Positions 2 to 19,495 of a stretch of DNA of 21,832 bases are shown one piece after another. Under the pieces are notes generated by a model. That model did not search any database, had not been told where the DNA came from, and saw only the letters and a list, made by a program, of their open reading frames with translations. Origin of the DNA: a virus. The position numbers were made by a program, and so were the translations under genes. Every line of letters begins with the position of its first letter. Within the stretch, counting starts at the first letter, position 1. The stretch covers positions 1 through 21,832 of the IMG/VR virus record IMGVR_UViG_3300020446_000094; one strand, given 5' to 3'.

Positions 2-226
2 GTACATGAGCTTATACGTGTAGCAGAAGAAGAGATTATAGTAGATGGGGGAGAAGACGAATTGGCTGCAGACAGATTAAAAAATGCAGCAGCAACTAAA
101 AAGCTTGCAATATTTGACGCTTTTGAAATACTTTCTCGTATAGAAACAGAAAAAAACATTATGGAAGATAAGCCGGCCGAAAATAAAAAAAGCTTCGGGG
201 GGTTTGCTGAAAAAAGATCTAAATAA
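2..226 (+). CDS. C-terminal end of an unknown gene upstream of terminase (5' partial)
   Basis: An open frame enters from the left edge (first whole codon at base 2) and runs 74 codons to a TAA at 224-226. The visible part is hydrophilic and probably helical. It has an acidic stretch (VAEEEIIVDGGEDE), then a helix-like segment (RLKNAAATKKLAIFDAFEIL), and a lysine-rich tail ending GFAEKRSK. The stop overlaps the terminase ATG by one base (TAATG), so the two genes are probably translationally coupled. The position directly before TerL is where a small terminase subunit often lies, but nothing visible proves that role and the N-terminus is missing. I do not recognise the family. The coding call rests on the clean open frame, the stop-start overlap and a composition like that of the neighbouring genes. 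Confidence 0.7.
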   Translation, partial: VHELIRVAEEEIIVDGGEDELAADRLKNAAATKKLAIFDAFEILSRIETEKNIMEDKPAENKKSFGGFAEKRSK

Positions 227-2433: not shown

Positions 2434-2434
2434 C

Positions 2435-4858: not shown

Positions 4859-4875
4859 TTTTATAATATTATATC
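4858..4875 (+). promoter_or_regulatory. A/T-only leader abutting the scaffold ATG (copy 1 of a duplicated 18-mer)
   Basis: The 18 bases directly before the ATG at 4876 match the 18 bases before the ATG at 7696 at 16 of 18 positions. There is no Shine-Dalgarno sequence. It touches the start codon, which leaves no room for a transcription start, so a translation-initiation role is more likely than a promoter. AT-rich, SD-free leaders are known in Bacteroidota and their phages. Function is inferred. Confidence 0.4.
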
Positions 4876-6123
4876 ATGGCAGAAGAAACTACTCAAGTTG
4901 AAGAGACCACACAAGAAGCGGTTGAACAACAAGCAGAAGAAAAACAACCTGTTGCTGAAGAGCCAAAAAAGCCTAGCAACACAACCGTTGATGAAGACGG
5001 TACTATTAAATTAGATTTAAGAAATTTAAACAAAAAAGACGATGCCGTTCAAGAGCAAAGCACAGATGAGGTTCCTGTACGCGACGAATCCGAAACTAGC
5101 GGAGAAGTACAAGAACAAAACAACGAAGAAGCAGATGAAAAATCTGCCGAACAAAGCGACTCCACTAACGATGAAAGCTCGGTGCTCGAGCTCGTATCAA
5201 GCGAAGAAACGGTAGACGAAGAGGCAACATTAGCGGATAAAATAAAAGATATTCCTAATAAGCTTAAAGAAGAGTCAGAAGACGTAAATAATAATCAAGA
5301 AGTCAGCGAGTTACCCGAAAATGTAAATAAACTTGTTGATTTTATGAAAGAAACAGGAGGAACTTTAGAAGATTATGTTAATTTAAATAAAGATTACTCT
5401 AATATGGATGATATGGATGTTTTAAGAGAACACTATAGGCAGTCCAAACCTCATTTGAATGAGGAAGAAATAAGTTTTTTAATTGAAGATTCTTTTTCAT
5501 ACGATGAAGACGCAGACGATGAAAGAGATGTTCGAAGAAAAAAGCTTGCATTAAAAGAATCTATCGCAGAAGCTAAATCAACTCTAACTAATTTAAAGAG
5601 TAAATATTACGATGATCTTAAGTTAAGCTCAAAGTTAACTCCCCAACAGAAAGAAGCGGTTCAGTTTTATGATGATTATAAACAAACGCGAGAAACATCA
5701 AAACAGCAGCGTTCTATATTTGAACAAAAAACAAATGATTTGTTTACTGACAATTTCAAAGGTTTTGAATATAAAGTCGGACAAAACAAATATAGATTTA
5801 AGGTAAAAGATGTAAATAGTGTGCAAGAAAACCAGTCTGATATTAATTCATTAGTTAGCAAGTTTGTTGACGAAAAAAATAATATGAAAGACGCAGCTGG
5901 TTATCATAAAGCATTATTTACAGCTATGAATGCTGATGCTATTGCAAATCACTTTTATGAACAAGGCAAAGCTGATGCTATTAAAAATAGTATGGCCAAG
6001 TCTAAAAACATAGATATGAACCCACGCGGCACGCATGAAAATGTAACAACCGCAGCGGGTATGCAAGTAAAAGCAATTAGTGGAGATGATTTCAGTCGTT
6101 TAAAAATTAAAATGAAACAATAA
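4876..6123 (+). CDS. Probable capsid scaffolding protein
   Basis: A 415-residue, very acidic protein between portal and major capsid protein, the usual place for a scaffold. Scaffolds line the prohead interior, guide shell closure and are then expelled or degraded. Residues 1 to about 150 are low-complexity (glutamate, glutamine, aspartate, threonine, valine) and probably disordered. Residues about 150-215 look conserved (GGTLEDYVNLNKDYS at 161-175, then HLNEEEISFLIEDSFSYDED). This is followed by a charged helix rich in Lys and Glu (about 215-275) and a mixed C-terminal part with NHFYEQGKADAIKNSMAKSK. A basic C-terminus (RLKIKMKQ) would suit contact with the capsid protein. No protease catalytic pattern was seen. 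It resembles proteins I remember between portal and capsid genes in marine phage contigs. It could also be an internal head protein. Confidence 0.65.
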   Translation: MAEETTQVEETTQEAVEQQAEEKQPVAEEPKKPSNTTVDEDGTIKLDLRNLNKKDDAVQEQSTDEVPVRDESETSGEVQEQNNEEADEKSAEQSDSTNDESSVLELVSSEETVDEEATLADKIKDIPNKLKEESEDVNNNQEVSELPENVNKLVDFMKETGGTLEDYVNLNKDYSNMDDMDVLREHYRQSKPHLNEEEISFLIEDSFSYDEDADDERDVRRKKLALKESIAEAKSTLTNLKSKYYDDLKLSSKLTPQQKEAVQFYDDYKQTRETSKQQRSIFEQKTNDLFTDNFKGFEYKVGQNKYRFKVKDVNSVQENQSDINSLVSKFVDEKNNMKDAAGYHKALFTAMNADAIANHFYEQGKADAIKNSMAKSKNIDMNPRGTHENVTTAAGMQVKAISGDDFSRLKIKMKQ

Positions 6124-6144
6124 CAAAATTAAGATTATTTAAAA

Positions 6145-7623
6145 ATGGGATTATTTGAAACAGGTGGTTCGTTTCCAGCAGGATTAACGCCCACCCCTAC
6201 TAAAACTTTGTTTGGTAATAACTACCTAACATTCGATTCTGCCTCAGGAGGTGGAACATTTGCACAACAATTTCTACCTGATGTATACGAAAAAGAAGTT
6301 GAAAGATACGGAAACCGTTCTGTAGCTTCTTTTCTACGTATGGTCGGTGCTGAAATTCCTTCTGCTTCAGACCAAATTATTTGGTCAGAACAAGGAAGAT
6401 TACATATAGCTTACGATAGCGCATCTGCTAATACAACAACTGGTGTAATTACTGAAACTGCTCACGCTGTAAGACTTGGTCAAACTGTAGCTATTATTGA
6501 AGCTGGAACACATCCAAATGATGGAGTAACTTGGACTGCTGATAAAGTGGTAAAAGGTGTTGTTTCTGCTGTAACTGCTGACACATTTACTGTACTTGCC
6601 TATGGAGGCGCTACGCTTACTGCCGCTGGACTTACTTCCGGTACTGGCGTTAGTGTAAAAGTATTTGTATATGGTTCTGAGTTTGCTAAAGGAACTTCGG
6701 GTATGGCTGGTTCTATTGACGCTGGTTTCCAAAAATTCTCTAATTCACCTATCATTATCAAAGATAAATATTCTATCTCTGGTTCTGATACTGCACAAAT
6801 TGGATGGGTTGAGGTTACTACAGAAAACGGAGCTTCTGGCTATTTATGGTATTTGAAGTCTGAGCATGAAACAAGGCTTAGATTTGAAGATTATCTTGAA
6901 ATGTCAATGGTAGAAGGTGAACTTGCTGCTTCAGGATCTGGAGCAATCGGAGCTTCTTATAAAGGAACTGAAGGTATGTTCGCTGCTATTGAGTCAAGAG
7001 GAAATGTTTATCAAAACTTCAACTCTAATGAGCAACTACTTGATAATGACGCTGCCGGTGGTGGTGCAAGAAGTGCTCTACAAGATTTTGATGAAATTCT
7101 AAAAAATCTTGACAAGCAAGGAGCTATTGAAGAAAACATGCTTTTCCTTAATAGAGCTACCGCGCTTGCATTTGATGATATGTTAGGAGCTGTTAATGCA
7201 CATTATGCTGGTGGATCTTCTTTTGGAGTATTCAACAACAGTGAGGATATGGCTCTTAATCTTGGGTTTAGTGGTTTCAGAAGAGGTTCTTATGATTTTT
7301 ATAAGACTGACTGGAAATACTTAAATGATGCTACAACAAGAGGACTTGGTGGAAATATTGATGGTGTGCTTGTACCTGCTGGTACTTCAACAGTGTACGA
7401 TCAACAACTTGGTAAAAACATCAAGCGTCCATTCTTGCACGTAAGATATAGAGCTTCTGAAGCTGATGATAGAAAAATGAAATCTTGGATCACTGGATCT
7501 GTAGGTGGAGTTTATACTAATGATGAAGATACTATGAATGTACACTTCTTATCTGAAAGATGTTTGTGTGTTCAAGGGGCTAATAACTTCGTATTATTTA
7601 AGACTGCTACTCAGCAAGCTTAA
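6145..7623 (+). CDS. Major capsid protein (HK97-fold, crAss-like/marine type)
   Basis: This 492-residue protein should form the icosahedral shell. The N-terminal arm has GGSFPAGLTPTPTKTLFGNN (7-26), followed by a helix-like LPDVYEKEVERYGNRSVASF (44-63) and SDQIIWSEQGRLHIAY (75-90). Residues about 100-180 form a separate beta-rich, glycine/alanine/threonine-rich segment, probably an inserted domain. A long helix follows (about 238-263), then P- and A-domain-like regions. The C-terminal part has PFLHVRYRASEADDRKMKSW (429-448) and MNVHFLSERCLCVQGANN (464-481). Length, order after portal and scaffold, and these patterns fit crAss-like capsid proteins. Leucine is mostly CTT here, whereas neighbouring genes favour TTA, and the GC content looks higher; both suggest selection for strong translation. 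An intrinsic terminator follows directly. Start chosen as the first ATG after an A/T-rich leader. Confidence 0.88.
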   Translation: MGLFETGGSFPAGLTPTPTKTLFGNNYLTFDSASGGGTFAQQFLPDVYEKEVERYGNRSVASFLRMVGAEIPSASDQIIWSEQGRLHIAYDSASANTTTGVITETAHAVRLGQTVAIIEAGTHPNDGVTWTADKVVKGVVSAVTADTFTVLAYGGATLTAAGLTSGTGVSVKVFVYGSEFAKGTSGMAGSIDAGFQKFSNSPIIIKDKYSISGSDTAQIGWVEVTTENGASGYLWYLKSEHETRLRFEDYLEMSMVEGELAASGSGAIGASYKGTEGMFAAIESRGNVYQNFNSNEQLLDNDAAGGGARSALQDFDEILKNLDKQGAIEENMLFLNRATALAFDDMLGAVNAHYAGGSSFGVFNNSEDMALNLGFSGFRRGSYDFYKTDWKYLNDATTRGLGGNIDGVLVPAGTSTVYDQQLGKNIKRPFLHVRYRASEADDRKMKSWITGSVGGVYTNDEDTMNVHFLSERCLCVQGANNFVLFKTATQQA

Positions 7624-7633
7624 TATTTAATGT

Positions 7634-7673
7634 AGAGATGGGGCGCCTTTGGGCGCTCCTATCTTTACTTTTT
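7634..7673 (+). terminator. Intrinsic terminator after the major capsid gene
   Basis: A GC-rich hairpin pairs 7640-7647 (GGGGCGCC) with 7652-7659 (GGCGCTCC), including one G-U pair, around a TTTG loop. It can be extended outward by GAT (7637-7639) with ATC (7661-7663) across one bulged T, plus three weaker pairs. Two T-runs follow (7664-7666 and 7669-7673). It stands out sharply against the AT-rich surroundings and probably separates abundant scaffold/capsid mRNA from the downstream tail transcript. Confidence 0.85.
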
Positions 7674-7677
7674 ATTA

Positions 7678-7695
7678 ATTTTATTATATTATATT
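7678..7695 (+). promoter_or_regulatory. A/T-only leader abutting an ATG (copy 2 of the duplicated 18-mer)
   Basis: This segment lies between the terminator and the ATG at 7696 and agrees with 4858-4875 at 16 of 18 positions. Similarity this close in two short spacers suggests a shared translation leader, but both are pure A/T, so chance similarity is easier than usual. Confidence 0.4.
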
Positions 7696-8469
7696 ATGGC
7701 AACTAAAACAAAGGCTACAAAGCCTTCAGGCCCTAAATGGGTTATAAAAGATAGATCTTATGTTCTTAAAGGTGGCAAACAACCTTTAACATTTACTTTA
7801 GCTTCAAAACATCATTCAAGAACACCTCTGTTATGGTGGGATGAAGAATTAGGTTATTCAAGAGAATTAAGATATGCTACTAATCAAAAATCACCACTTC
7901 GTGATGAGCAAAAAGGTAATTCAACATTAGGGCATATTGTTTTTAGAGATGGATTTTTGTTTGTGTCAAAAACAAATCAATCATTACAAAAACTGTTATC
8001 ATTGTATCATCCAGGCAAAGATGTTATGTACGAAGAATTGGATTCTGTACAAGAAGCAAAAGATGATTTGGTAGATTTAGAAATGGAAATTGAAGCTTTA
8101 AATATTGCAAAATCAATGGAATTAGACCATGCTGAAGCGGTATTAAGAGTTGATCAAGGAAGTTCTGTTTCATCAATGACCTCGCAAGAAATAAAAAGAG
8201 ATATACTATTATATGCAAAAAATAACGCAGAGCTTTTTTTACAACTTGCAAATGATGATAATGTTCAACTAAGAAACTTTGGTATTAAAGCATCTGAATT
8301 AGCTATAATACATTTATCAACAGATCAAAGATCTTGGCATTGGAGTAAAACAAATAGAAAATTGTTTACAGTACCATTTGACGAAAATCCTTTTTCAGCA
8401 TTAGCCGCGTGGTTTAAAACTGATGAGGGAACAGAGGTATATAAAGCTATTGAAAAACAATTAAAATAA
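7696..8469 (+). CDS. Unrecognised structural-module protein following the capsid gene
   Basis: A 257-residue protein whose function I cannot name. The N-terminal half looks like a compact beta domain: WVIKDRSYVLKGGKQPLTF (15-33), PLLWWDEELGYSRELRYATN (44-63), then SPLRDEQKG and a hydrophobic IVFRDGFLFV. The middle is acidic and helical (VQEAKDDLVDLEMEIEALNI, about 118-137). The C-terminal part has ELFLQLANDDNVQLRNFGIK and a tryptophan-containing QRSWHWSKTNRKLFTVPFDENPFSALAAWF, which looks like a conserved closing segment. I remember similar proteins in marine phage contigs at the same position, always hypothetical. Its place between a capsid terminator and the connector genes suggests a capsid-associated, head-completion or regulatory role. 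There is no signal peptide or membrane segment. It starts behind the duplicated A/T leader. Confidence 0.88.
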   Translation: MATKTKATKPSGPKWVIKDRSYVLKGGKQPLTFTLASKHHSRTPLLWWDEELGYSRELRYATNQKSPLRDEQKGNSTLGHIVFRDGFLFVSKTNQSLQKLLSLYHPGKDVMYEELDSVQEAKDDLVDLEMEIEALNIAKSMELDHAEAVLRVDQGSSVSSMTSQEIKRDILLYAKNNAELFLQLANDDNVQLRNFGIKASELAIIHLSTDQRSWHWSKTNRKLFTVPFDENPFSALAAWFKTDEGTEVYKAIEKQLK

Positions 8470-8476
8470 CCATCTT

Positions 8477-8509
8477 GTAGTGATATGGGTCACTACGGTG
8501 GCCCTATCA
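8477..8509 (+). promoter_or_regulatory. Intergenic element with two mutually exclusive hairpins
   Basis: In the spacer between two genes, GTAGTGA (8477-8483) pairs perfectly with TCACTAC (8490-8496) around a six-base loop. The same bases can instead form a longer stem: 8481-8493 pairs with 8498-8509 (12 pairs, one bulged T at 8486, one T-G pair), closed by C(TACG)G, a UNCG-type tetraloop of exceptional stability. The two folds share bases and cannot coexist. No T-tract follows, so it is not a standard intrinsic terminator. It could be an attenuator-like switch, an RNA processing or stability element, or a protein-binding site. Confidence 0.6.
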
Positions 8510-8525
8510 TTATAAATACAAAATT

Positions 8526-9212
8526 ATGGCAATAAGCGTAGATACGGTATACCAAAGAGTACAAGCCATTCTTAATAAAGAGAATAGAGGTTATATGACT
8601 CCACAAGAGTATAATCTTCTTGCTAATCAAGCTCAATTAGAAATATTTGAACAATATTTTTATGATTTAGGCCAATTTAATAGACTTGGCGAAATAAATA
8701 GTGAATATGCTAATGTAATAGATAATATAAAAGAAAAAATTAGCTTATTCAAAAAAACATCTTCACTAACAAAAAGCGGTTCCGTTTTTCCTTTACCATC
8801 AGATATATATAGATTAGGCACTGTTTATTATAACAATACAACACCTATTGATCAATTAGATCAAAATGAATTTTTATATATAAACGCTTCTCCGCTTACT
8901 ACTCCATCTACTTCTCAACCTGTTTTTGTAAGAAATGGAAATGATTTAAATATATATCCGTCAACTATAGCAAATAGTATTAATTTATCATATATTAAAG
9001 TTCCTTCTGAAGCAAAATGGGAATATGTAACTGTATTGGATACAGCGCAGTATGATAATACTACAGCGGTAGATTTTGAGCTGCATGAATCTGATGAAAC
9101 AACTTTAGTATATAAAATATTAAGTTATGCAGGTCTTGTAATAAAACAACCTGAAATCAGTCAAATTGCAGAGCAAAAAGATGCTTTAAAAACACAAAAA
9201 GAAAAATCTTAA
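8526..9212 (+). CDS. Probable head-tail connector/ring protein 1 (adaptor)
   Basis: A 228-residue protein with the layout of portal-binding adaptors. It has a helical N-terminus (VDTVYQRVQAILNKENRGYM, 5-24, then YNLLANQAQLEIFEQYFYDL), a beta-rich middle (SVFPLPSDIYRLGTVYYNN; VFVRNGNDLNIYPSTI; INLSYIKVPSEAKWEYV), and a helical C-terminus (TLVYKILSYAGLVIKQPEIS) ending in a charged tail. The phrase around PLPSDIYRLGTV followed by a short native-state strand is what I associate with ring or adaptor proteins below the portal of podoviruses. Position supports this: after the head genes, immediately before a second protein of the same style, then the nozzle. The stop is 3 bases from the next ATG. 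The fold class is inferred; it could instead be a general structural protein. Confidence 0.62.
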   Translation: MAISVDTVYQRVQAILNKENRGYMTPQEYNLLANQAQLEIFEQYFYDLGQFNRLGEINSEYANVIDNIKEKISLFKKTSSLTKSGSVFPLPSDIYRLGTVYYNNTTPIDQLDQNEFLYINASPLTTPSTSQPVFVRNGNDLNIYPSTIANSINLSYIKVPSEAKWEYVTVLDTAQYDNTTAVDFELHESDETTLVYKILSYAGLVIKQPEISQIAEQKDALKTQKEKS

Positions 9213-9215
9213 TAA

Positions 9216-10106
9216 ATGAGTTTAGCAGAGTACATACAAGATGATTACTATTCAGGTTCGAATAAGGGTTACTATCAATACATAAAGCTAGCTGATGTAA
9301 TAAGTAATTTTATAGTATCGCAAGTAGGCGACGATAAAATTATTAAAAAGGTAAAAAGAGCAGAAGTTTTTTTCCATGCTCAGCGCGCCTTGCAGGAGCT
9401 TAGTTATGACACTATAAATAGTATAAAAACACAAGAAATAGAAGTACCTCCTTCACTTAGTATGCCTCTGCCCCATGACTTTGTAGGTTATACTAGAATA
9501 TTGTTTACAGATGAGTCTGGAATACAAAGACCACTAACACCTTCAAAAACATCTTCGGCTCCATCCGCTGTATTTCAAGATTCAAATTATAACTACGTAT
9601 TTGATAACGCTGGTAAACTTTCTTTAGCAAATGAGTCAGAAAGCGCATCAAGGTTTAGAACAGCTAACCAAGACACAAATGCTAATACTGATTCTAATAT
9701 AAATTTTTTAGAAGAGGGATACGGATATAATGTAGATTTTGGCAAAAGATATGGTATAAATCCTCAATTAGCTACAAAAAATGGGTCGTTTATAATTGAT
9801 CAAAATAATGGCACAATTTCTTTTTCTAATGATAATAAAAATAGAATTATTGTTTTAGAATATATATCAGATGGTTTAAATATTAGTGATGATATGAAAA
9901 TACATAAATTTGCTGAAGAAGCAATATATAAATCAATATCCCTTGCAATAATATCAGCAAAATCTAATATACCTGAGTATCAAATAAATAGACTTAAAAA
10001 AGAACGTAGAGCTACAATGCGAGCTGCCAAATTAAGGCTTGCTAATATAAATATTGCAGATCTTACTCAAATAATGAGAGGTAAATCTCAACAAATTAAG
10101 CACTAG
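9216..10106 (+). CDS. Probable head-tail connector/ring protein 2 (adaptor or upper nozzle)
   Basis: This 296-residue protein repeats the plan of its upstream neighbour on a larger scale. It has an N-terminal helix region (IKLADVISNFIVSQVGDDKI, then KVKRAEVFFHAQRALQELSY), a beta region with LPHDFVGYTRILFTDESGIQ, and an acidic, asparagine-rich insertion (about 140-185). A strand pair follows (GTISFSNDNKNRIIVLEYIS), then a long basic C-terminal helix (EEAIYKSISLAIISAKSNIP, then RLKKERRATMRAAKLRLAN). The helix-beta-helix order and the basic C-terminal helix are typical of the rings that join portal to tail in short-tailed phages (T7 gp11-like or P22 gp4-like role). The TAG stop at 10104-10106 is followed, in the same frame, by AAT and then the ATG of the giant gene. 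Confidence 0.65.
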   Translation: MSLAEYIQDDYYSGSNKGYYQYIKLADVISNFIVSQVGDDKIIKKVKRAEVFFHAQRALQELSYDTINSIKTQEIEVPPSLSMPLPHDFVGYTRILFTDESGIQRPLTPSKTSSAPSAVFQDSNYNYVFDNAGKLSLANESESASRFRTANQDTNANTDSNINFLEEGYGYNVDFGKRYGINPQLATKNGSFIIDQNNGTISFSNDNKNRIIVLEYISDGLNISDDMKIHKFAEEAIYKSISLAIISAKSNIPEYQINRLKKERRATMRAAKLRLANINIADLTQIMRGKSQQIKH

Positions 10107-10109
10107 AAT

Positions 10110-13100
10110 ATGGCTGAAATTAAGCACACTTTTACGTCAGGGAGAATGAATAAAGACCTTGACGAAAGGCTTATCCCTAATGGAGAATATAGAGATGCTT
10201 TAAATATAAAAGTTTCTTCTTCTGCAGGCTCAGATGTGGGTGCAGTTGAAGGCCTTTTAGGTAATATACAAATATCTCAATTAGGCATTGACAATGCTTC
10301 GGCTATAGGGGCTATAAAAGATACAACTAATAATAAAATTTATTGGTTTATAACATCTTCAAGCATTGATTCAATATTTGAACAAAATATTTTAACAAAT
10401 ACTTTTGCTCCTGTTATTGTTGATTTAAAATCAAAACAAGTAACCACAATAAAAAGTGTAGTTTCTTCTGATTTAAGCAACGATATTATATTTGAAGATA
10501 TTAACAATAATACTATTAAAAAAATAATAGGTAATGATTTGCCATCTGAAACAGATGAAGAAGCATTAGTGCTTAATAATATTTTTGTAAATATTCCAGA
10601 TATTGCAACTAATATATCAATACCAAAAAATACGGTATTGAAAAAAAATGAAAATGGGTTTTTTGTTTTTAAAAATATAAAATATAACAATAAAAAAATT
10701 CAATTTAATAATATTGAATTTGTATATTATTCTAATAACATATTAAATTTTTCTAAAAATAATTTAATTACTGGAATAAATATAATAGATGGTTTATTGT
10801 TTTTTACAGATAATGTAAATGCCCCGCGCAGGATTAATATAAAAGATTTTGTAACTTTTTCTAATGGCATATATAACGCTAAAACTAAAGTTAAATATAA
10901 AGTTAAAAATAAAGAAACAAATCAAATATTAGAAGAAGAAAGAGTATTTACAGAAGATGATATTTCTGTAGCAAAAAAAGCACCTTTTGCTTCACCGGAT
11001 ATGGAGCTTTTTGATAGCCTTATAGAAGGTACGACTGAAATATCTAATTTAAAAAATTTATTTGGTATTAAAATAAATGATATAATAGATTTAAAAAATA
11101 TAGGTCTAACTTTATCATGGCAAGCTGAAGATATAATAGAAATTTCGTCGCCTGACGATAGTGATGTAACTATAACAACACAAGTTTCTACTGTTCTTAA
11201 CGACAATATTGAATTAAAAGTAATTTCTATAGAAGGCGATATAGCCGATAAAAATTTAAATTATAATTTTGAGTTATTAGAAAAAGATTCTATATATAAA
11301 CTTGGCTTTGTAAGGTTTGCTTATAGATGGAAATATAAAGATGGAGAATATTCTGCAATATCTCCTTTTACAGTCCCTGCTTTTATACCGGGCACTTTTT
11401 TATTTGATGGGCGTGAGGCTTATAATAAAGCTATGTCAAATAAATTACAAAAAGTAATTCTTTCAAATTTTAATTTAGGAGATTCTAATGTTGAAAAAAT
11501 AGATATATTATTTAAAGAAACAAGAAACAATAATATATATGTTCTTCAATCTATAAATAAAGAAGATTTTAATGAATCTTTTGAAATAAAAAAAGAGCAA
11601 ATACATTCAGTATTACCTAATGATCAATTATTAAGGCAATGGGATAATGTTCCTAGAAAAGCTAAAGCACAAGAAATTACTGCTAATAGAATTATTTATG
11701 GAAATTATGTACAAAATTTTGATATTTTTACAGACCCAAAATTTAAAATAGAATCATACAATAGAAATGCTTTATTTAATAGATCTATAAAATCTAATAG
11801 AACATACCAAGTTGGCGTAGTGTATATGGATGATTACAATAGACATTCTCCTATATTATCTAATGATAGCGGTTCTTACACTATAAATTACCAATCTGCC
11901 GGTCTAAATACTGGTCTTTCTATTAAAATGACAACTCCACCGCCGGCTTGGGCTAAATATTATAAATATTATATAAAAGATGTTTCTGGAGAATACTATA
12001 ATTTAGCCGCTGACAAATTTTATAAAGATGAACTAACTAATTTTGTTTATGTTTCTTTTCCTTCAACAGATAGAAACAAAATAGACAAAGACTCTTATTT
12101 GCATTTAAAAAAATATCATGGTAGCGATAAGCTACAGGACTCACCTGTTAAATACAAAGTAATTGATATTTTTAATGAACCCCCTGAGGTGATACATGAA
12201 AAATTAGAGCAAATAGGTGCATTTGAAAATGTATTATTTGCCGCATCTTATGGGGATAACGCTACTGTTGCTACAAAAACCGCTGGAGGAACTCCTGTAG
12301 AAAATAATACCAAAATACAAATACGTTCTATAAATACTACAGGCACAACAAGTGGAGAAGCTGGCACCCAAGGGGTTGATAGTGATTCTAAAGAATTTTT
12401 AAAAGGTGGTACTTATGCAAGATTTTATATTAATAATAAAAAGTCTAAAACATATAAAATAGCTTCTACTAGGTATCATTTTGATGGGGGAAGTGACGAA
12501 GCTGAAGTTAAGTTTGAAAAGCCTTTTGGCCCTGATGTAAATTTTATATATACTGATCCTGAGCTATCTAATAGTCCAATAAAACCAAATGTTGCAATGC
12601 GTTTTTATAAAGACGCGGCTGATGCTGGTGACCCAGAATTTAATGGTAGATTTTTTGTTAAATTAAGAAATGATTTTACATTAGATGATGCTATAAAAAA
12701 ACAGCCTGCTACAGATGACGATGGCGTTAAATATTTTGAAGCATACAGCGTTTTATTTGATGGATTAGATAGAAATAATTATAATTATGCAAAATCTGGA
12801 AGCGAGCCCCGAATTTCACCAACACCAGTTCATGTTAAAGCAGGAGGCACTAAAGTTGAGGGAAGCAGATCAGAAACAGGAAAAAGAGATTTAATTGGAA
12901 GTAAAAAAGCACATATAACTTTTGAGCAAACTGGTCCTTCAGATGATTCTTCTTTCTTAGATAATATAACTGTAGGCACAAAATTAAGGTTTTCTAACCA
13001 TAGCACTATATATAGAGTAGGGGTAGCAAAGCATGAAACTATTTCCAGAAAAAAGGGTCCTAGCCACTCTGTAAAAGTAGTAAAAATGCGCTTTGAAGAC

Positions 13101-16100
13101 GAAGATGGTAAAGAAACAAATTTAACGCATGATCTTGTAACCGATCGAACAAACTTAGACCCTAATTTTTTATCTGTAAGTATACTTATAGAAGAAGACG
13201 AAGAAACAGTTTTATTTACTTCTAATCCAGCTGTTTTTGAAACTGAGCCTAAAGAACAAAAAACAGAATTAGATATATATTACGAAACAGAAAAAGCTTT
13301 TCCAATATCAGAGCATGGCAATTTTAAAGAATTAGAATGGTATAATGCATTTTCTTTTAACAACGGTGTAGAGTCTAATAGAATAAGAGATGATTTTAAT
13401 GGTATTTTTATTGATACAGGGGTAAGGGCTTCGTCCGTTATTGAAGAACAATTTAAAGAAGAACATAAATTTAACGGAATAATTTGGTCTGGCATAATTA
13501 ACTCTAGGTCTGGTGTTAATCAGTCAAATCAATTTAATGCAGCAAATCCTATAACAAAAGATTTACTCCCTTCATACGGCCCAATACAAAAAATGCATGC
13601 ATGGGACGATCAATTAGTAATGCTTTGTGAAAATAAAATTGTTAGAGCTTGGGCTGATAAAGACCAATTATTTAATGCTGACGGTTCTACAAATTTAATT
13701 GCCAGCAATAGCGTAATAGGGTCGGTAAGCCCCTATAACGGAGATTATGGAATATCTAATAACCCTGAGTCGTTTGCAAGCTATGGGTTTAGATGCTATT
13801 TTACTGATAAAAAAAGAGGTGCTGTATTAAGACTTTCTAAAGACGGATTAACTGCAATAAGTGCAGCTAATATGTCCACATTTTTTGAGGATAGGTTATA
13901 TGGCCAAACAAGATTATTATTAGGATCTTTTGACGAAAACAATAAACTATATAATATTACTTTTAGCCAGCAAGACACATTGTGTTTTTCAGAAGCTGTT
14001 AATGGTTGGGTAACAAGAAAATCTTATATGCCAGACCACGCTATTTCTTTAAATGGCAAATATTATACGTTTAAAAAGAACGAAATTTGGGAGCATGATA
14101 GAAAAGATGCAATATTAAATACATTTTATGGGGATTCAATTACTTCTTCTGGAACAAACAATTCAGCATATTCTAAAATAGTATTTGAATTAAATGATGA
14201 CCCTTCTATAATTAAAAAATTTAAAACTCTTTCTTATGAGGGCGATAAAGGTTGGAATGCTAAAATAGAAACGGATCAACAAAAAAGTTCTACATTATCT
14301 TTTAAAGAAAAAGAAAATAAATATTTTTCAAATATTACAGGAGAATCAAAAAATAGAAATAATTTAGATTTAAAAAATATTTCTTTTCAAGGTATTGGTA
14401 AATCTGTACCAGCCTCTGACGCTGAATATACAGACCAAATTGGTAATGTCAATAATACAATATCAACGGTAGTTTTAAGTGCTAATAGTATAGACTCTTT
14501 ACCAATTAATATAAAAGATATAAAAAGCATTACTATTAATAAAAAGCCGGGAGAAAAAACTTCTAGTTTTGAATTTTATATATATCCTCAAGAAGGATAT
14601 TATATAGTGCCTAATTCTTTGGAATACTCAAATATAGAACCAGGAAGTTCTATGTTATTCGAATATATTGATGACTACGCAAAAATAACTTTAAGTTATG
14701 AATTAATACAAGGGTCTACCGACCAAAATTATAATTTTTTAGTTTTAGGAAAAACATTACAAAAAGAAGTTGTAGTTGAAGGTACTTATACTTATAATTT
14801 ACCCTCGCCTTGGCAGTTAGATTTTCCACTAACAGGAACTTTTAGAGTTAAAGGACTCCCAGGGGAGGCTGGAATAATAATTAAATCACCTACTGTATTT
14901 TTAGGAAATGATGATTTAGACTTGCATTTAATAGAGTTTAATTCTACGAATGATTCAGATATAACAATTGAGGCAAATTCTAATGTTAAAATTGCTGTTT
15001 CTAAGCAGAATAATAATGCTTTTAAAGTAACAGAATTAATAACATTACCTAAAAAATCTATTCAAAATTTTTCATATGTAGTAAATGTAAAAAGTACAGA
15101 AGCTCCGCCGGTTATAAATTATCTTATACGAAAAACATTTAACCCAGAAAATTTTACTTTAAGTAACTTAGAAGAAACAGTAGATTTAAAAATATTAGCT
15201 AATATAAATTCTTCTTATAATATAAAATTTGAAAGAACAGCTGGCAGCCCAATAGAAATTATAAAAGAACAAACAATTGTACACACTACAGAAGAACAAG
15301 GGTTTGAATTTGTTTTTCCTGAAAGTAATTTAAGCGAAATATATAAAATAACTATTAGCGAAAACACAAATACACAAGCAAAAGATTCTTTTGGTGATAA
15401 AATTGTTACATTTTCAAGAGCTGCTAAAGTTCAAAAAGAAGCTAATTTATTAATAAAATATAATCAAAATAGTAATACTACTTTAACGTATAATGCTTTT
15501 GTAGGGGAAAGTATTAATTCAAAAATAAATTTTAGTGGCACAAATTATATAACATTACCAGTCGGTACTTATATTATACCCAAATCGCCTTTATCTTCTG
15601 ATTTTGTTAATTTTGGGAAAAACAAAAATAATGCCTCAATAGATTTTACAAAATTTGAGTTTGATACTACAAACACTAATCGATTAATTATAGAAGGTAT
15701 AATAAATATTGAAAATATTACAGAAAATGAAACTTATATACTTGATTTAACAAAAGTATTGGGTGCAAGTATTACGACTACTTTTGATTATAGCATTGTA
15801 AGTGGATCCGGAAATTATACAGATTCCCCAACATCTTATACAGATATTGGGCCCGGAGGATTAATAAAAAATCCTGATTTAACACAATATCTTTTTACAT
15901 TAACACCTTCTTCTAATTTTGTTTTTAAAGAAACAATTAGCGGAAGCGATTTTGAAATTGTAGACAGTTCAAATACCGACGTTTCTTCTTTATATGCACT
16001 TACAGGAGAAATAAAATTATTAAAGGAAAACAATTTAATTAAAGTTGGGTTTGATACAAAATCTTATACAGTACCTTTAACTGCGTCAACAATTTTTGTT

Positions 16101-18440
16101 AGACCAAAGCAATCAGTTGTATTAACAGAGGCTGATGTAAGTAGTATTGCTAAAAAATATATATTAGATATAGAATTAACCGCTGAAAGTACTCAATCTA
16201 ATGAATTAACGTATACTGAAAATTTTGCTAAAACTTTTAAAAATATAGATTCAGCTTCTACAAATATATTATACCAGTTTGTATACAATGATAAAGAACT
16301 ATCAAATTTAAGACCTTTATTAAATAATAATATTATAGGTGCTATTCACTCAGGTCAATTTAGCAATTTTGTTTTTTCAAATACCAATAATACACAAGTA
16401 ACTTTAGTAAGCTCAAGTGGAGGAACTTTTACAAATACAGACGGAAATTCTGTAACTGTCGCAGGGCCTTATAGTTATGATTCTTCTACAAAAGATTTAA
16501 CCGTTAACTTGCTAATTAATTTAACAGCAGGTGGAAATAGTGTAAGTAATAAGGTTTCCTTAAAAATACTTTTTGATCATTTAAAACAATATAATGCTTC
16601 AAATAATTTAATTGATAAATACAAATTAATTTCTATATATCCAGGTGCTGGTTTAACAAGCATGGTAAGGGCTGGTTGTGAAAATACTTTAAAAGGAACA
16701 CCCTCTTATGTAGGCCCAGATAGTTTTACTTCAATAGATCCACAAGACAATAAATTCCCTAAGTTTTGGATGTACAATGGTGCTCCTTTAGCAAAAGGTC
16801 AACAAATTTTTGCACAAAAAGAAAATGAAGTAGCCCCTGGCAGTCCTGTAGTATGGTTCCAAACTAATACTAAAAATATTTTAGTAGCAGGGGATAACAC
16901 TCTTTATAATGTTGGGCAAGATAATTTAAAAAGAGATGGTATAATATTAGAATCTAAAGCATGTCCGTTGCCAAGCAGCCATATAAGTGTTGCTTATGAT
17001 GGAACTCAATATGTGAAACCAACAAGAGGATATTATCCAGATGTTATAACTCATAAACTTCTTTTGCATAGTACAATATATAAAGATGAGCAGGCAACAG
17101 TTACAGGAGAGATTATAAATATTACTTCAACTCAAAAAGGTAATTACGGTGATTTTTACCAATGGGCAGTAGTAACAGGCCAAGTAAAAGCCGCTAAAGA
17201 TGGATTGCCACCTCACTTCGCAAATACCTTTTTCCCCGGTTTACTTGAATCAACTCCATTAAATGGTTTAACAATTACATCTATAACTGCTAGTAGCAAT
17301 AAACAAAATTATACAGATAGAGAGGCTTATAACTCGGCTGGAGTATTTAACAATAATCCTCTGGCTGTAACATCAAATGTTGGTAATGTAAAATATAAAT
17401 GGAAAAAAAGTTTGTTTTTTAATGAAAATGGAGTAGCAGAAATGGAGTGGTTTTCTTATAGAGGTAAAGCACAATATAGTTATATGGTTAGATTTGACAA
17501 TAGAGCTGCTACCTCACCTGTAGCGGGATTTGGTTATCAAATACCTTTTATGGCCAGAAGAAGCAATGCAGGAATAAGTGATAAATATGATGTAGGACCA
17601 TCACCTAATCAAGTAAATAAATACGAAAAAATTTCAAATACTTGCTTCCAAGACTTAAAGCTTACAAAATTTGGGGCTAATAATCCTTTTTATGATGCAA
17701 ATCCATATTGTCCTCCTGTAGGAGTTCCTGAAAACCCTGTTTTTTCAGATAAATATTTAATAAACGATAGCACAGACGATTTAATTGCTCTTAGAAATGG
17801 TTCTGGAGATATACAACAAATTGGGGCTCGGCCTTATGGAAATTATAATATGGTGACTTCGTTTGGTTTAATGTTTAATAATAGTGGCAATAAATTAAAT
17901 TTTGAAAAAGATCCTAGTGAAGGAAATAAAATCCGAAGTATTGATAGAGAAGTAAAATATGCATATATTAAAATAGACAATTTAACAGTATATACTGACC
18001 CAGAATATTCTTTTAAAAATTTAATTGATCCAACAGAAAATCCGCCTTTTGAAGCAATAGGATTAGACGGCCCTACTGTTTTAAATATAAATGGGCAAAA
18101 ATATGCAAAAATTGTATTTTTTAATACAAATAATACTTATAATATAAAGTATCATCCAGAAAGAGTTTTAAATAAAAATATTATATTCGGTACTGATGGT
18201 AGTACAAATAATTTTATTGGTTCAGTTATACAAGCAGGTAATATAGACCATACAGAAAACAGTAACTATTTAAAAGATTTAGGTAAATGGATACAAGGAA
18301 ATATTTATGTATATGGATATAAAGCAGGATCTCCTGGTGATACAACAATAGATTTAGGATTTAATATTAAAAATTATGAAGTAGGAGGGCCTTCAAATAT
18401 TGGACAATTCGTTAATTTAGAAAAATTAATAATAAAATAA
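10110..18440 (+). CDS. Giant tail nozzle protein with a long C-terminal beta-rich, probably adhesive region
   Basis: One 2776-residue open frame. Residues 1 to about 1420 resemble a nozzle/tail-hub family known to me from marine phages: HTFTSGRMNKDLDERLIPNG at 6-25, GAVEGLLGN, VRFAYRWKYKDGEYSAISPF (about 400), YQVGVVYMDDYNRHSP (about 566), MHAWDDQLVMLCENKIVRAW (about 1160), and YFTDKKRGAVLRLSKDGL (about 1228). The alternating strands fit a beta-propeller-containing tail tip. From about 1460 to 2180 the sequence is threonine-, asparagine- and serine-rich with beta-sandwich-like segments and little conserved motif. The last 600 residues carry more aromatic and proline residues plus a few cysteines (AGCENT, KACPLP, NTCFQD, NPYCPP), as in receptor-binding domains. 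No collagen repeat, chaperone domain or obvious autocleavage site is visible. Its stop overlaps the next ATG (TAATG). Nozzle role likely; the adhesin role is inference. Confidence 0.72.
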   Translation: MAEIKHTFTSGRMNKDLDERLIPNGEYRDALNIKVSSSAGSDVGAVEGLLGNIQISQLGIDNASAIGAIKDTTNNKIYWFITSSSIDSIFEQNILTNTFAPVIVDLKSKQVTTIKSVVSSDLSNDIIFEDINNNTIKKIIGNDLPSETDEEALVLNNIFVNIPDIATNISIPKNTVLKKNENGFFVFKNIKYNNKKIQFNNIEFVYYSNNILNFSKNNLITGINIIDGLLFFTDNVNAPRRINIKDFVTFSNGIYNAKTKVKYKVKNKETNQILEEERVFTEDDISVAKKAPFASPDMELFDSLIEGTTEISNLKNLFGIKINDIIDLKNIGLTLSWQAEDIIEISSPDDSDVTITTQVSTVLNDNIELKVISIEGDIADKNLNYNFELLEKDSIYKLGFVRFAYRWKYKDGEYSAISPFTVPAFIPGTFLFDGREAYNKAMSNKLQKVILSNFNLGDSNVEKIDILFKETRNNNIYVLQSINKEDFNESFEIKKEQIHSVLPNDQLLRQWDNVPRKAKAQEITANRIIYGNYVQNFDIFTDPKFKIESYNRNALFNRSIKSNRTYQVGVVYMDDYNRHSPILSNDSGSYTINYQSAGLNTGLSIKMTTPPPAWAKYYKYYIKDVSGEYYNLAADKFYKDELTNFVYVSFPSTDRNKIDKDSYLHLKKYHGSDKLQDSPVKYKVIDIFNEPPEVIHEKLEQIGAFENVLFAASYGDNATVATKTAGGTPVENNTKIQIRSINTTGTTSGEAGTQGVDSDSKEFLKGGTYARFYINNKKSKTYKIASTRYHFDGGSDEAEVKFEKPFGPDVNFIYTDPELSNSPIKPNVAMRFYKDAADAGDPEFNGRFFVKLRNDFTLDDAIKKQPATDDDGVKYFEAYSVLFDGLDRNNYNYAKSGSEPRISPTPVHVKAGGTKVEGSRSETGKRDLIGSKKAHITFEQTGPSDDSSFLDNITVGTKLRFSNHSTIYRVGVAKHETISRKKGPSHSVKVVKMRFEDEDGKETNLTHDLVTDRTNLDPNFLSVSILIEEDEETVLFTSNPAVFETEPKEQKTELDIYYETEKAFPISEHGNFKELEWYNAFSFNNGVESNRIRDDFNGIFIDTGVRASSVIEEQFKEEHKFNGIIWSGIINSRSGVNQSNQFNAANPITKDLLPSYGPIQKMHAWDDQLVMLCENKIVRAWADKDQLFNADGSTNLIASNSVIGSVSPYNGDYGISNNPESFASYGFRCYFTDKKRGAVLRLSKDGLTAISAANMSTFFEDRLYGQTRLLLGSFDENNKLYNITFSQQDTLCFSEAVNGWVTRKSYMPDHAISLNGKYYTFKKNEIWEHDRKDAILNTFYGDSITSSGTNNSAYSKIVFELNDDPSIIKKFKTLSYEGDKGWNAKIETDQQKSSTLSFKEKENKYFSNITGESKNRNNLDLKNISFQGIGKSVPASDAEYTDQIGNVNNTISTVVLSANSIDSLPINIKDIKSITINKKPGEKTSSFEFYIYPQEGYYIVPNSLEYSNIEPGSSMLFEYIDDYAKITLSYELIQGSTDQNYNFLVLGKTLQKEVVVEGTYTYNLPSPWQLDFPLTGTFRVKGLPGEAGIIIKSPTVFLGNDDLDLHLIEFNSTNDSDITIEANSNVKIAVSKQNNNAFKVTELITLPKKSIQNFSYVVNVKSTEAPPVINYLIRKTFNPENFTLSNLEETVDLKILANINSSYNIKFERTAGSPIEIIKEQTIVHTTEEQGFEFVFPESNLSEIYKITISENTNTQAKDSFGDKIVTFSRAAKVQKEANLLIKYNQNSNTTLTYNAFVGESINSKINFSGTNYITLPVGTYIIPKSPLSSDFVNFGKNKNNASIDFTKFEFDTTNTNRLIIEGIINIENITENETYILDLTKVLGASITTTFDYSIVSGSGNYTDSPTSYTDIGPGGLIKNPDLTQYLFTLTPSSNFVFKETISGSDFEIVDSSNTDVSSLYALTGEIKLLKENNLIKVGFDTKSYTVPLTASTIFVRPKQSVVLTEADVSSIAKKYILDIELTAESTQSNELTYTENFAKTFKNIDSASTNILYQFVYNDKELSNLRPLLNNNIIGAIHSGQFSNFVFSNTNNTQVTLVSSSGGTFTNTDGNSVTVAGPYSYDSSTKDLTVNLLINLTAGGNSVSNKVSLKILFDHLKQYNASNNLIDKYKLISIYPGAGLTSMVRAGCENTLKGTPSYVGPDSFTSIDPQDNKFPKFWMYNGAPLAKGQQIFAQKENEVAPGSPVVWFQTNTKNILVAGDNTLYNVGQDNLKRDGIILESKACPLPSSHISVAYDGTQYVKPTRGYYPDVITHKLLLHSTIYKDEQATVTGEIINITSTQKGNYGDFYQWAVVTGQVKAAKDGLPPHFANTFFPGLLESTPLNGLTITSITASSNKQNYTDREAYNSAGVFNNNPLAVTSNVGNVKYKWKKSLFFNENGVAEMEWFSYRGKAQYSYMVRFDNRAATSPVAGFGYQIPFMARRSNAGISDKYDVGPSPNQVNKYEKISNTCFQDLKLTKFGANNPFYDANPYCPPVGVPENPVFSDKYLINDSTDDLIALRNGSGDIQQIGARPYGNYNMVTSFGLMFNNSGNKLNFEKDPSEGNKIRSIDREVKYAYIKIDNLTVYTDPEYSFKNLIDPTENPPFEAIGLDGPTVLNINGQKYAKIVFFNTNNTYNIKYHPERVLNKNIIFGTDGSTNNFIGSVIQAGNIDHTENSNYLKDLGKWIQGNIYVYGYKAGSPGDTTIDLGFNIKNYEVGGPSNIGQFVNLEKLIIK

Positions 18441-18760
18441 TGGCAGATCTTAATGTTTCTTTTAATAAAAAAATAAATTTTTCTTGTCAAATTGGTGATG
18501 AAGTATATTTTTTAAAAAGTGGTAATCCTCGATTTTTAGGCTTATGTAAAAGCATTTCAACAGATAGAAAAAGCTTTATTATAGATGTTACTGAAAACAT
18601 AAGACCAGTTATAGGTGATTATTTTATGTTCGCTAAAAATAACGTAATAAATAGTAATGGAGTGCTTGGTTATCATGGCACTGTAACAATGGAAAATACA
18701 TTAAATGATTCTACAGAATTATATGCTGTAAATTCTGAAATACAAATAAGTAGTAATTAA
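18440..18760 (+). CDS. Small virion-type protein of unknown role
   Basis: A 106-residue, mostly beta protein whose ATG overlaps the giant gene's stop (TAATG), so it is probably made by coupled translation. It starts MADLNVSFNKKINFSCQIGD and continues with VYFLKSGNPRFLGLCKSIST. A central IGDYFMFAKNNVINSNGVLG precedes YHGTVTMENTLNDSTELYAV and a closing SEIQISS. Proteins with the same ending (a G-Y-x-x-x-V-x-M-x-N strand, then A-E-L-F/Y-A-V) are familiar to me next to structural genes in several tailed phages, usually annotated hypothetical. Two cysteines, no signal peptide and no membrane segment. Possible roles are a minor tail component or an assembly partner of the nozzle; I cannot choose between them. 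Confidence 0.85.
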   Translation: MADLNVSFNKKINFSCQIGDEVYFLKSGNPRFLGLCKSISTDRKSFIIDVTENIRPVIGDYFMFAKNNVINSNGVLGYHGTVTMENTLNDSTELYAVNSEIQISSN

Positions 18761-18772
18761 AAATATATTAAT

Positions 18773-19495
18773 ATGTTTGGAAGTGGAATTGTAAACCCAT
18801 CAACATCAACACCAGCAGCAGCAGCAGCAGCGCCCGCGGCTATAGCAAAGGAGCCTAGCAAATTAGGCCAAGCTATAAAAAGTACAGCTCAAGACGATCC
18901 TGGAGCATTTGGACAAATAGCACAAGGTTTAGCAGGTGTAGCTGGTGGTTTAATTGGCGGTCGCGCTCGCAGAAGAGAACAAAGAGAAGCAAGAGCAGAA
19001 TTAGCTAGACAAAGACAAGCTTACGAAACTTTTGAATTTAAAGACCCAACAGCTAATTTAACTAATCCTTTTGAAGATTTAACTGTAAATCAACAGCAAG
19101 CACAATTTGCTTCTCAACAACAACAGCAGGCTTTAGCAGGTACATTGTCAGGTTTATCTGGGGCTGCAGGAGGATCTGGGATTGCTGCGTTGGCACAAAC
19201 ATTAGCACAACAGCAATCAAGCAATTTACAAGCTTCTGCGGCAAGCATAGGTGCCCAAGAGTCTAGAAATCAATTAATGAGAGCCCAAGGGCAACAATCT
19301 TTAGAACAACAAAGAGCAGCAGGAGCTGCGGCAAAAGAAGCCAAAGAGTTCGGTAGAACAGAAACGTTATTTGGTATGGCACAACAACGTAAAGCTGCAG
19401 CAGACGAAGCAAGACGCGCCGCGACTGAAGGCTTAGTTGGCGGGATAGCCAATGTAGCTGTAGGAGCTGGTCGAATAGCCGCTGGCGGAATGTAA
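18773..19495 (+). CDS. Probable internal virion (ejection) protein, Ala/Gln-rich
   Basis: A 240-residue protein rich in alanine, glutamine and glycine. It opens with a short region carrying six alanines (15-20). A glycine-rich, possibly membrane-interacting helix follows (FGQIAQGLAGVAGGLIGG, about 46-63), then an arginine-rich coil (RARRREQREARAELARQRQA). A conserved-looking centre reads FKDPTANLTNPFEDLTVNQQ (73-92) and GAAGGSGIAALAQTLAQQQS (130-149). A long Ala/Gln helix follows, with a second glycine-rich hydrophobic end (LVGGIANVAVGAGRIAAGGM). This plan of amphipathic glycine/alanine helices around an alpha-helical core recalls small ejection proteins of podoviruses (T7 gp14-like or P22 gp7-like) that enter the cell envelope with the DNA. 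Assignment by composition, order and memory of marine relatives. Confidence 0.62.
   Translation: MFGSGIVNPSTSTPAAAAAAPAAIAKEPSKLGQAIKSTAQDDPGAFGQIAQGLAGVAGGLIGGRARRREQREARAELARQRQAYETFEFKDPTANLTNPFEDLTVNQQQAQFASQQQQQALAGTLSGLSGAAGGSGIAALAQTLAQQQSSNLQASAASIGAQESRNQLMRAQGQQSLEQQRAAGAAAKEAKEFGRTETLFGMAQQRKAAADEARRAATEGLVGGIANVAVGAGRIAAGGM
18813..18830 (+). repeat. (CAG)6 trinucleotide repeat encoding poly-alanine
   Basis: Six perfect CAG units, read as GCA codons, give most of alanines 15-20 of the internal virion protein. Slippage here would change alanine number without shifting the frame. It is GC-rich in an AT-rich genome. Confidence 0.9.

Follow-up and report, generated by a model that had tools for sequence, protein, structure and literature searches.

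A candidate host-contact arm inserted ahead of the detached last domain of a crassvirus-type tail muzzle

P0001, a 2776-aa protein encoded on the plus strand (10110-18440) of the complete 21,832-base virus record IMGVR_UViG_3300020446_000094 (the window), is probably the tail muzzle of a crassvirus-related flavophage into which an arm for contact with the host has been grafted before the last domain, where it would act as an auxiliary adhesin and not as a substitute for fibers. Comparison with related sequences shows where the graft is located, that the last domain is detached, that the arm of relatives changes more quickly than their core and that the arm alternates between fused and separate forms. 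A sequence-only reading of this DNA had already proposed a 2776-residue ORF with a two-part build, a nozzle or tail-hub half followed by a beta-rich extension. Both proposals are borne out, the first by an ATG start and a frame with no internal stops, the second by matches to PHROG 14478 and PF25729 and by the predicted structure of the proximal arm.

Residues 1-1430 (10110-14399, plus strand) are, judged from profile matches, a crassvirus-type tail muzzle. P0001 matches PHROG 14478 in four stretches (E 2e-120; best stretch 1033-1437), and an HMM for the end of the core stops at residue 1430. Residues 1352-1410 (14163-14339, plus strand) score 28.7 bits, against a curated cut-off of 27, with PF25729, the "Crassvirus muzzle protein C-terminal domain" (crAss_MUZ_C). 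These two matches uphold the nozzle or tail-hub identity that had been suggested for the first half of the protein. PF25731 (crAss_MUZ) is not listed for P0001 or for the muzzles of Cellulophaga phage phi38:1 and Flavobacterium phage elemoF_6-3D (elemo), and the related locus L059 has a partial match below cut-off. A sequence search of the PDB gave no match for P0001, for alignments A1 and A2 or for the phi38:1 and elemo muzzles. The core is 47-49% identical to those of 12 loci (the nearest relative, L001, excluded) that align in one piece from residue 1 to at least residue 1428. In a tblastn search of 50,697 phage records P0001 matched 87, all at less than 60% identity, and in the 40 of these that were listed, annotated structural proteins from isolates match from residue 1 onward and never past 1439. 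Beyond 1440, the remaining 1336 residues have no match in the phage records at E ≤ 0.1 and match no PHROG or Pfam family at cut-off, the best sub-threshold row being BBS2_GAE (E 0.028). By these searches the muzzle belongs to a known family and the extension was not found among the isolates in the phage collection. The boundary between the two parts, which the sequence-only reading had put at about residue 1460, is real and lies at about 1430-1440. Of the aromatic and cysteine-containing C terminus little remains: there are 3 cysteines in residues 1-1440, none in 1441-2120 and 4 in 2121-2776, with 11.2%, 10.3% and 12.0% aromatics, respectively. In L023 and L024 the core ends at residues 3075 and 3107, with about 1600 extra core-internal residues relative to the window.

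Upstream of the muzzle is a syntenic block (226-10106, plus strand) that encodes TerL, the portal and five more structural or unknown proteins, assigned from PHROG matches apart from a 415-aa gene that has none. The order of TerL, portal, structural genes, two small structural genes and muzzle is also that of phi38:1 (Pervagoviridae), elemo (Elemovirus) and the environmental phage ctfjg026, and because it is common to these phages the host is probably a marine member of the Bacteroidota. GC-rich, hairpin-like sequences were seen by eye at 7624-7663 and 8470-8509, in the gaps that follow the 492-aa and 257-aa genes.

The arm comprises 1346 residues inserted directly ahead of the last domain that belongs to the muzzle; this domain is encoded by the following 106-aa ORF (18440-18760, plus strand). 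The two ORFs meet in a stop/start overlap, TAATG (18438-18442, plus strand). PHROG 18548 is a single profile that spans muzzle residues 1289-1440 together with the 106-aa ORF. An HMM derived from 26 ORFs of the last-domain family matches the C termini of intact muzzles (elemo 1398-1491, E 4e-11; phi38:1 1236-1321, E 7e-6) and second muzzle pieces (L059 158-268, E 5e-19; L046 167-265, E 3e-11), with partial matches in L032-L034 (E 9e-5 to 1e-7). On the evidence of these profiles, the 106-aa ORF is not a foreign gene but the last domain of the muzzle itself. The loci compared were obtained by searches with P0001 and the 106-aa ORF, with three annotated phages added, and are a non-random sample. 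From 48 rows with a core end, 9 that stop short of the last domain and 2 repeat contigs were removed, leaving 37 contigs in which near-identical ones from different samples are counted separately. In 21 of the 37, a fused extension of 695-1617 aa is followed directly by the last-domain ORF. In six others 321-879 aa are fused and one further ORF stands apart (L009, L012, L015, L051, L023, L024), and three have 23-63 aa fused and one or more separate ORFs (L016, L019, L043). The remaining seven (L032, L033, L034, phi38:1, L046, elemo, L059) have no insert at this slot and carry the last domain in the same ORF. The last domain is separate in 30 of 30 contigs with an insert and fused in 7 of 7 without one, and we propose that it is separate whenever the arm is present because the arm needs a free end. 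Five of the seven insert-free muzzles (L032-L034, L046, L059) are broken elsewhere, and a whole single chain is present only in phi38:1 and elemo.

Inspection of the broken muzzles shows several arrangements. In L033 (5818-15147), L034 (6218-15560) and L035 (8115-17166) the core is distributed over three ORFs that cover profile positions of about 1-123, 210-311 and 393-1396, the intervals being occupied by large additional ORFs or extensions. The break falls between profile positions of about 587 and 1097 in L032 (10001-15860) and at about 1297 in L046 (8001-14021) and L059 (4977-10300), and the gap in L046 holds a 183-aa ORF annotated "putative glycosidase". A programmed frameshift from the muzzle into the next ORF was rejected as the main idea: the shift needed differs (+1 in L007 and L012, -1 in L009 and L015), the distance from the muzzle stop to the first possible start codon of the last-domain ORF, where nothing lies between, ranges from -25 to +29, and the window has similar junctions between other genes, although single phages might still use this mechanism.

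The proximal arm, residues 1441-2120 (14430-16469, plus strand), is predicted to consist of tandem beta-sandwich domains. An AlphaFold2 model of residues 1428-2175, based on the 18 sequences of alignment A1, has a mean pLDDT of 75.1 and is nearly all strands, with a pTM of 0.37, so that the relative placement of the domains is not fixed by the model. The earlier description of the C-terminal half as beta-rich, with stacked sandwiches, agrees with this model at least as far as about residue 2175. Fold matches (VIA-align) best cover a predicted Ig-like domain at residues 1667-1772 (15108-15425, plus strand), most of the rows spanning model residues 240-346 and being tied near Z 8. This domain resembles an Ig-like domain in GbpA, a chitin-binding factor from Vibrio (2xwx_A; Z 8.7, 3.0 Å over 94 residues), in a tie with Calx-beta, macroglobulin and complement domains, and such Z values are common. 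Foldseek returned 18 rows at E ≤ 0.001 for the proximal-arm model, the top ones being long multi-domain beta-sandwich proteins (query TM 0.06-0.14) and the lower ones single Calx-beta domains (target TM about 0.5); we read this result only as a predicted beta-sandwich array. The Pfam matches of the 18 proximal arms were disbelieved, being spread over nine unrelated families, of which the best was JHBP (E 0.0007, in two members).

The distal arm, residues 2121-2464 (16470-17501, plus strand), is homologous to the fused arm of L049, as determined by phmmer (E 4.7e-15 over arm residues 1-344, to about residue 2464) and alignment A3, whose six sequences include a separate 499-aa ORF of L051. With the distal arm alone as the query, no further relatives were found in the viral contigs, and an A3 profile search gave five loci, all on contigs already included in the comparison. 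Rows for A3 in the PDB, an SsrA-binding protein (E 0.019) and a thioredoxin (E 0.61), were taken as chance, and no binding domain was recognized by PHROG or Pfam in the window's distal arm. The 312-residue tip that follows (2465-2776; 17502-18437, plus strand) is not covered by phmmer among the arms of the loci and has no match in the viral contigs, phage records, PHROGs or Pfam. A model of residues 2110-2776 from the six sequences had a mean pLDDT of 33.3, too poor for a fold search, probably because relatives are scarce.

In two groups of relatives the same distal part occurs both as a fusion and as an ORF of its own. In the first it is fused in L002, L010, L049 and L054 and forms the 499-aa ORF of L051, the end points of the two forms adjoining one another. 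In the second, L004, L005, L008 and L038 have it fused, and L009, L012 and L015 encode it as a separate ORF of 389-395 aa; the L007 muzzle has the same end as these three, and its contig ends shortly after. A single polypeptide, which the sequence-only reading saw as an unusual host-recognition design, is not essential, the homologous distal part being a separate ORF in L051, L009, L012 and L015. As we read the alignment, the break in the second group splits one Ig-like domain, the first part of which would belong to the muzzle and the rest to the next ORF. L005 and L008 read straight through the Ig-like repeat where L009, L012 and L015 break, and partial Big_2 matches in the L009 and L015 ORFs, although below cut-off, begin at profile position 29 of 79, as they would if the first part of the domain were missing. 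In L004, TSP3 repeats stand between arm parts of the same kinds, and BACON is found in the L012 arm just above cut-off and in L009 below it, with no listing in L015, L004, L005, L008 or L038. Rows for Por_Secre_tail in L053 (E 0.04) and for EF-hands in L012 and L015, all below cut-off, were set aside. Judged from these alignments, the alternation of fused and separate forms and the variety of linkers amount to modular behavior in the relatives.

The muzzle may, more generally, be a self-assembling split chassis, into which host-contact modules are plugged at fixed points with breaks in the chain and whose pieces rejoin non-covalently, the 106-aa ORF being one such piece. We put this forward tentatively, and with slightly less than even confidence. 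It draws on the Ig-like domain that is shared between two ORFs in L009, L012 and L015, and apparently in L007, and on the cores that are broken at other places in L032-L035, L046 and L059.

Along the chain, sequence divergence in the relatives increases from core to arm and is mostly greatest at the arm's end. In all 16 pairs that reach 65% identity over residues 1-690, conservation is lower in the proximal arm than in core residues 1051-1435; these pairs share members and are not independent. Within groups the distal stretch falls below the proximal arm in 10 of the 12 pairs where it is measurable and equals it in two (L008/L038 and L005/L008), only the fused part being counted for the group formed by L007, L009, L012 and L015. 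From residue 2465 on the arm is below residues 2121-2464 in eight of the nine comparable pairs among the 16, with one tie. Identities of the window to distant complete relatives, distal and proximal respectively, are 26 and 26% (L052), 26 and 33% (L010) and 25 and 31% (L049). The pair L009/L015 is instructive. Portal (100%), MCP-like gene, core (98-99%) and proximal arm (97%) are all 97-100% identical and the last domain is 99% identical, whereas the separate ORF is 84% identical over its first 240 aa and 54% over the remainder. In the DNA, the final 500 or so bases of this ORF are 46-76% identical, and identity is back at 97-99% in the last domain. The last-domain ORF, which lies 3' of the arm, is conserved like the core (81-99% identity in the 10 within-group pairs that have it), and the drop in identity is therefore local to the arm. 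The distal part thus varies more than its anchor, as would be expected of an adhesin, in the relatives; the tip of the window has no close relative. The gene that follows in the window (18773-19495, 240 aa) is also highly variable, with 53% identity between L009 (15906-16661) and L015 (15813-16670), whose cores are 98-99% identical.

The sequence-only reading had expected the C-terminal half to vary faster, and this holds for the 16 pairs of relatives but fails for the window and L001. The frame of L001 is unbroken from the core into the extension until its contig ends at its residue 2106, before the distal arm, so this comparison covers the core (74% identity) and the proximal part of the extension (84%). 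The most variable stretch is in the core, where protein identity is 36-38% at residues of about 700-1050 versus 84% in the proximal arm. In the DNA a hypervariable block at 12116-13215 (plus strand; residues of about 669-1036) has 46-69% identity to L001 in 100-base steps, while the four flanking steps show 81-89% before it and 86-95% after it, and the lowest value elsewhere is 73%. The sharp edges of this block give it the look of a recombination product. It occupies the place expected for the crass fold, an assignment made from position alone. It may be argued that this block is the muzzle's main receptor contact and that the arm is a tail decoration or shield, and the sharp borders, the low identity and the proposal of the phi-crAss001 structure authors that the crass domain touches the cell (PMC10172136) all speak for this. 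We nevertheless consider this explanation somewhat unlikely, because the distal arm lies outside the L001 comparison and, in within-group pairs with complete fused arms, it is the least conserved part of the muzzle in six of seven, being tied with the proximal arm in the other. The explanation is compatible with a second contact made by the arm, the alternatives weighed here not all being mutually exclusive, and both surfaces, core block and arm, may face the host.

A more doubtful alternative is that the arm is mainly mechanical, its folded Ig-like domains straightening on attachment to lengthen the channel, as in phage SU10, with sequence drift reflecting relaxed constraint. The prediction of tandem beta-sandwiches for the proximal arm would suit such a role. 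SU10 has a nozzle-type protein with tandem Ig-like domains at the tail end, and its four Ig-like nozzle domains are described as rearranging to extend the tail by 28 nm (PMC9509320); the likeness noted here is one of domain type and of location at the tail end. However, the SU10 domains are inserted between propeller blades 2 and 3. In P0001, judged from the order of the sequence, the arm comes after the C-terminal domain of the core and ends freely. In SU10 the C-terminal part of the chain is reported to return to the platform domain, and short fibers to dock at blade 1, where that part leaves the propeller (PMC9509320). Also against a mechanical role are the strong differences over the last 500 or so bases of the separate tip ORF in the otherwise near-identical L009 and L015, the linkers, which may be Ig or TSP3 repeats, and the lack of an arm in the isolates phi38:1 and elemo. 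That the long ORF is an accidental fusion of the muzzle with a downstream fiber gene, through a lost stop or an assembly error, is very improbable and was rejected, since the occurrence of the distal part as a separate ORF in several relatives is outweighed by the independent contigs with fused arms (21 of 37) and by the L001 frame, which crosses the core-arm junction.

It had also been suggested that the fused arm explains why no separate fiber gene is seen in the window. Four relatives on contigs of 64-69 kb (G001, G003, G008 and G005; TerL 83-92% and portal 80-94% identical to those of the window, the portal of G001 being 94% identical), which we judge from size and gene content to be near-complete, contradict this, as all four carry separate tail-fiber ORFs. 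In G001 three ORFs match tail-fiber PHROGs: one of 2326 aa that contains DUF7483 and six LamG-type stretches, another large one and one of 735 aa; the three corresponding ORFs of G003 and G008 match as well, and in G005 one of two ORFs scanned does so, about 8 kb upstream of terL. In G001, G003 and G008 the first fiber ORF is about 1.3 kb upstream of terL. Since the fiber genes of relatives lie upstream of terL and the window has only 225 bases there, the missing fiber gene is most likely an effect of the window's borders, and a fiber gene just outside, which the sequence-only reading had named as counting against it, is what the relatives have. G001 also carries GroES-like (L066 8010-8603, minus strand) and GroEL-like (L067 4188-5735, minus strand) genes.

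Some of these features have counterparts in known systems. The muzzle gp44 of phi-crAss001 contains the same PF25729 domain family as P0001, from which a role as a tail-tip gate may be extended to P0001. The phi-crAss001 paper attributes variation in muzzle length to insertions in the crass and IG2 regions, and its accessible text describes neither an arm before the last domain nor a detached last domain (PMC10172136). The muzzles of phi38:1 and elemo resemble P0001 at about 33-34% identity over pieces that cover 23-29% of it, but they are 1324 and 1493 aa long, lack the arm and have the last domain fused. The evoDit distal tail proteins are likewise tail structural proteins with added carbohydrate-binding modules, but they belong to siphoviruses and are neither nozzles nor muzzles (PMC9128512). 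Ig-like domains are reported in the DGR-targeted fibers of some zeta crAss-like phages (PMC12386605), and an Ig-like stalk with an exchangeable tip is a known design in fibers. The accessible text of PMC10172136, PMC10136315, PMC7886860, PMC8776804 and PMC12386605 makes no mention of such a graft in the muzzle, ahead of a last domain that is detached, and no paper on it is among the titles and abstract openings given by a literature search whose scope left out most subscription papers and all bioRxiv preprints.

The auxiliary-adhesin reading that we prefer is favored by the single slot, the modules (TSP3, BACON) in the arms of relatives, the divergence and the beta-sandwich model. Counting against it are the window's own distal arm, in which no binding domain is recognized, BACON's reaching its cut-off in L012 alone, the breaks elsewhere in five of the seven insert-free muzzles, the isolates phi38:1 and elemo, which do without an arm, the dedicated fibers of the relatives and the core block, which varies far more than the proximal arm in the comparison with L001 and could hold the main contact. 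The steps envisaged are as follows. The phi-crAss001 muzzle is described as a hexamer; its crass fold has been proposed to touch the cell and so cause the gate to open, and the fibers of this phage dock higher up, on a collar (PMC10172136). If P0001 forms such a hexamer, six arms would hang from the end of the tail. Each arm would leave the muzzle near its upper, platform side, the copies pointing down or outwards, while the last domain, although detached, would pack against the core again. The proximal beta-sandwich domains would hold out the distal tip, and after the ordinary fibers had bound, the tip would make a second contact, its target being a host surface structure, probably a glycan. 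Opening of the muzzle gate would follow this contact.

The docking and ejection steps of crassviruses have been described as unknown (PMC10136315), and their muzzle is thought to act as a gate. A defined slot for adhesin-like arms, fused or split, is a testable candidate for the evolution of host range in marine flavophages, and pairs of the L009/L015 type, with near-identical cores and different tips, are natural experiments for this purpose. For annotators, the small ORF after the muzzle belongs to the muzzle. If the muzzle is indeed a split chassis, modules would be exchangeable between phages while the gate is left undisturbed.
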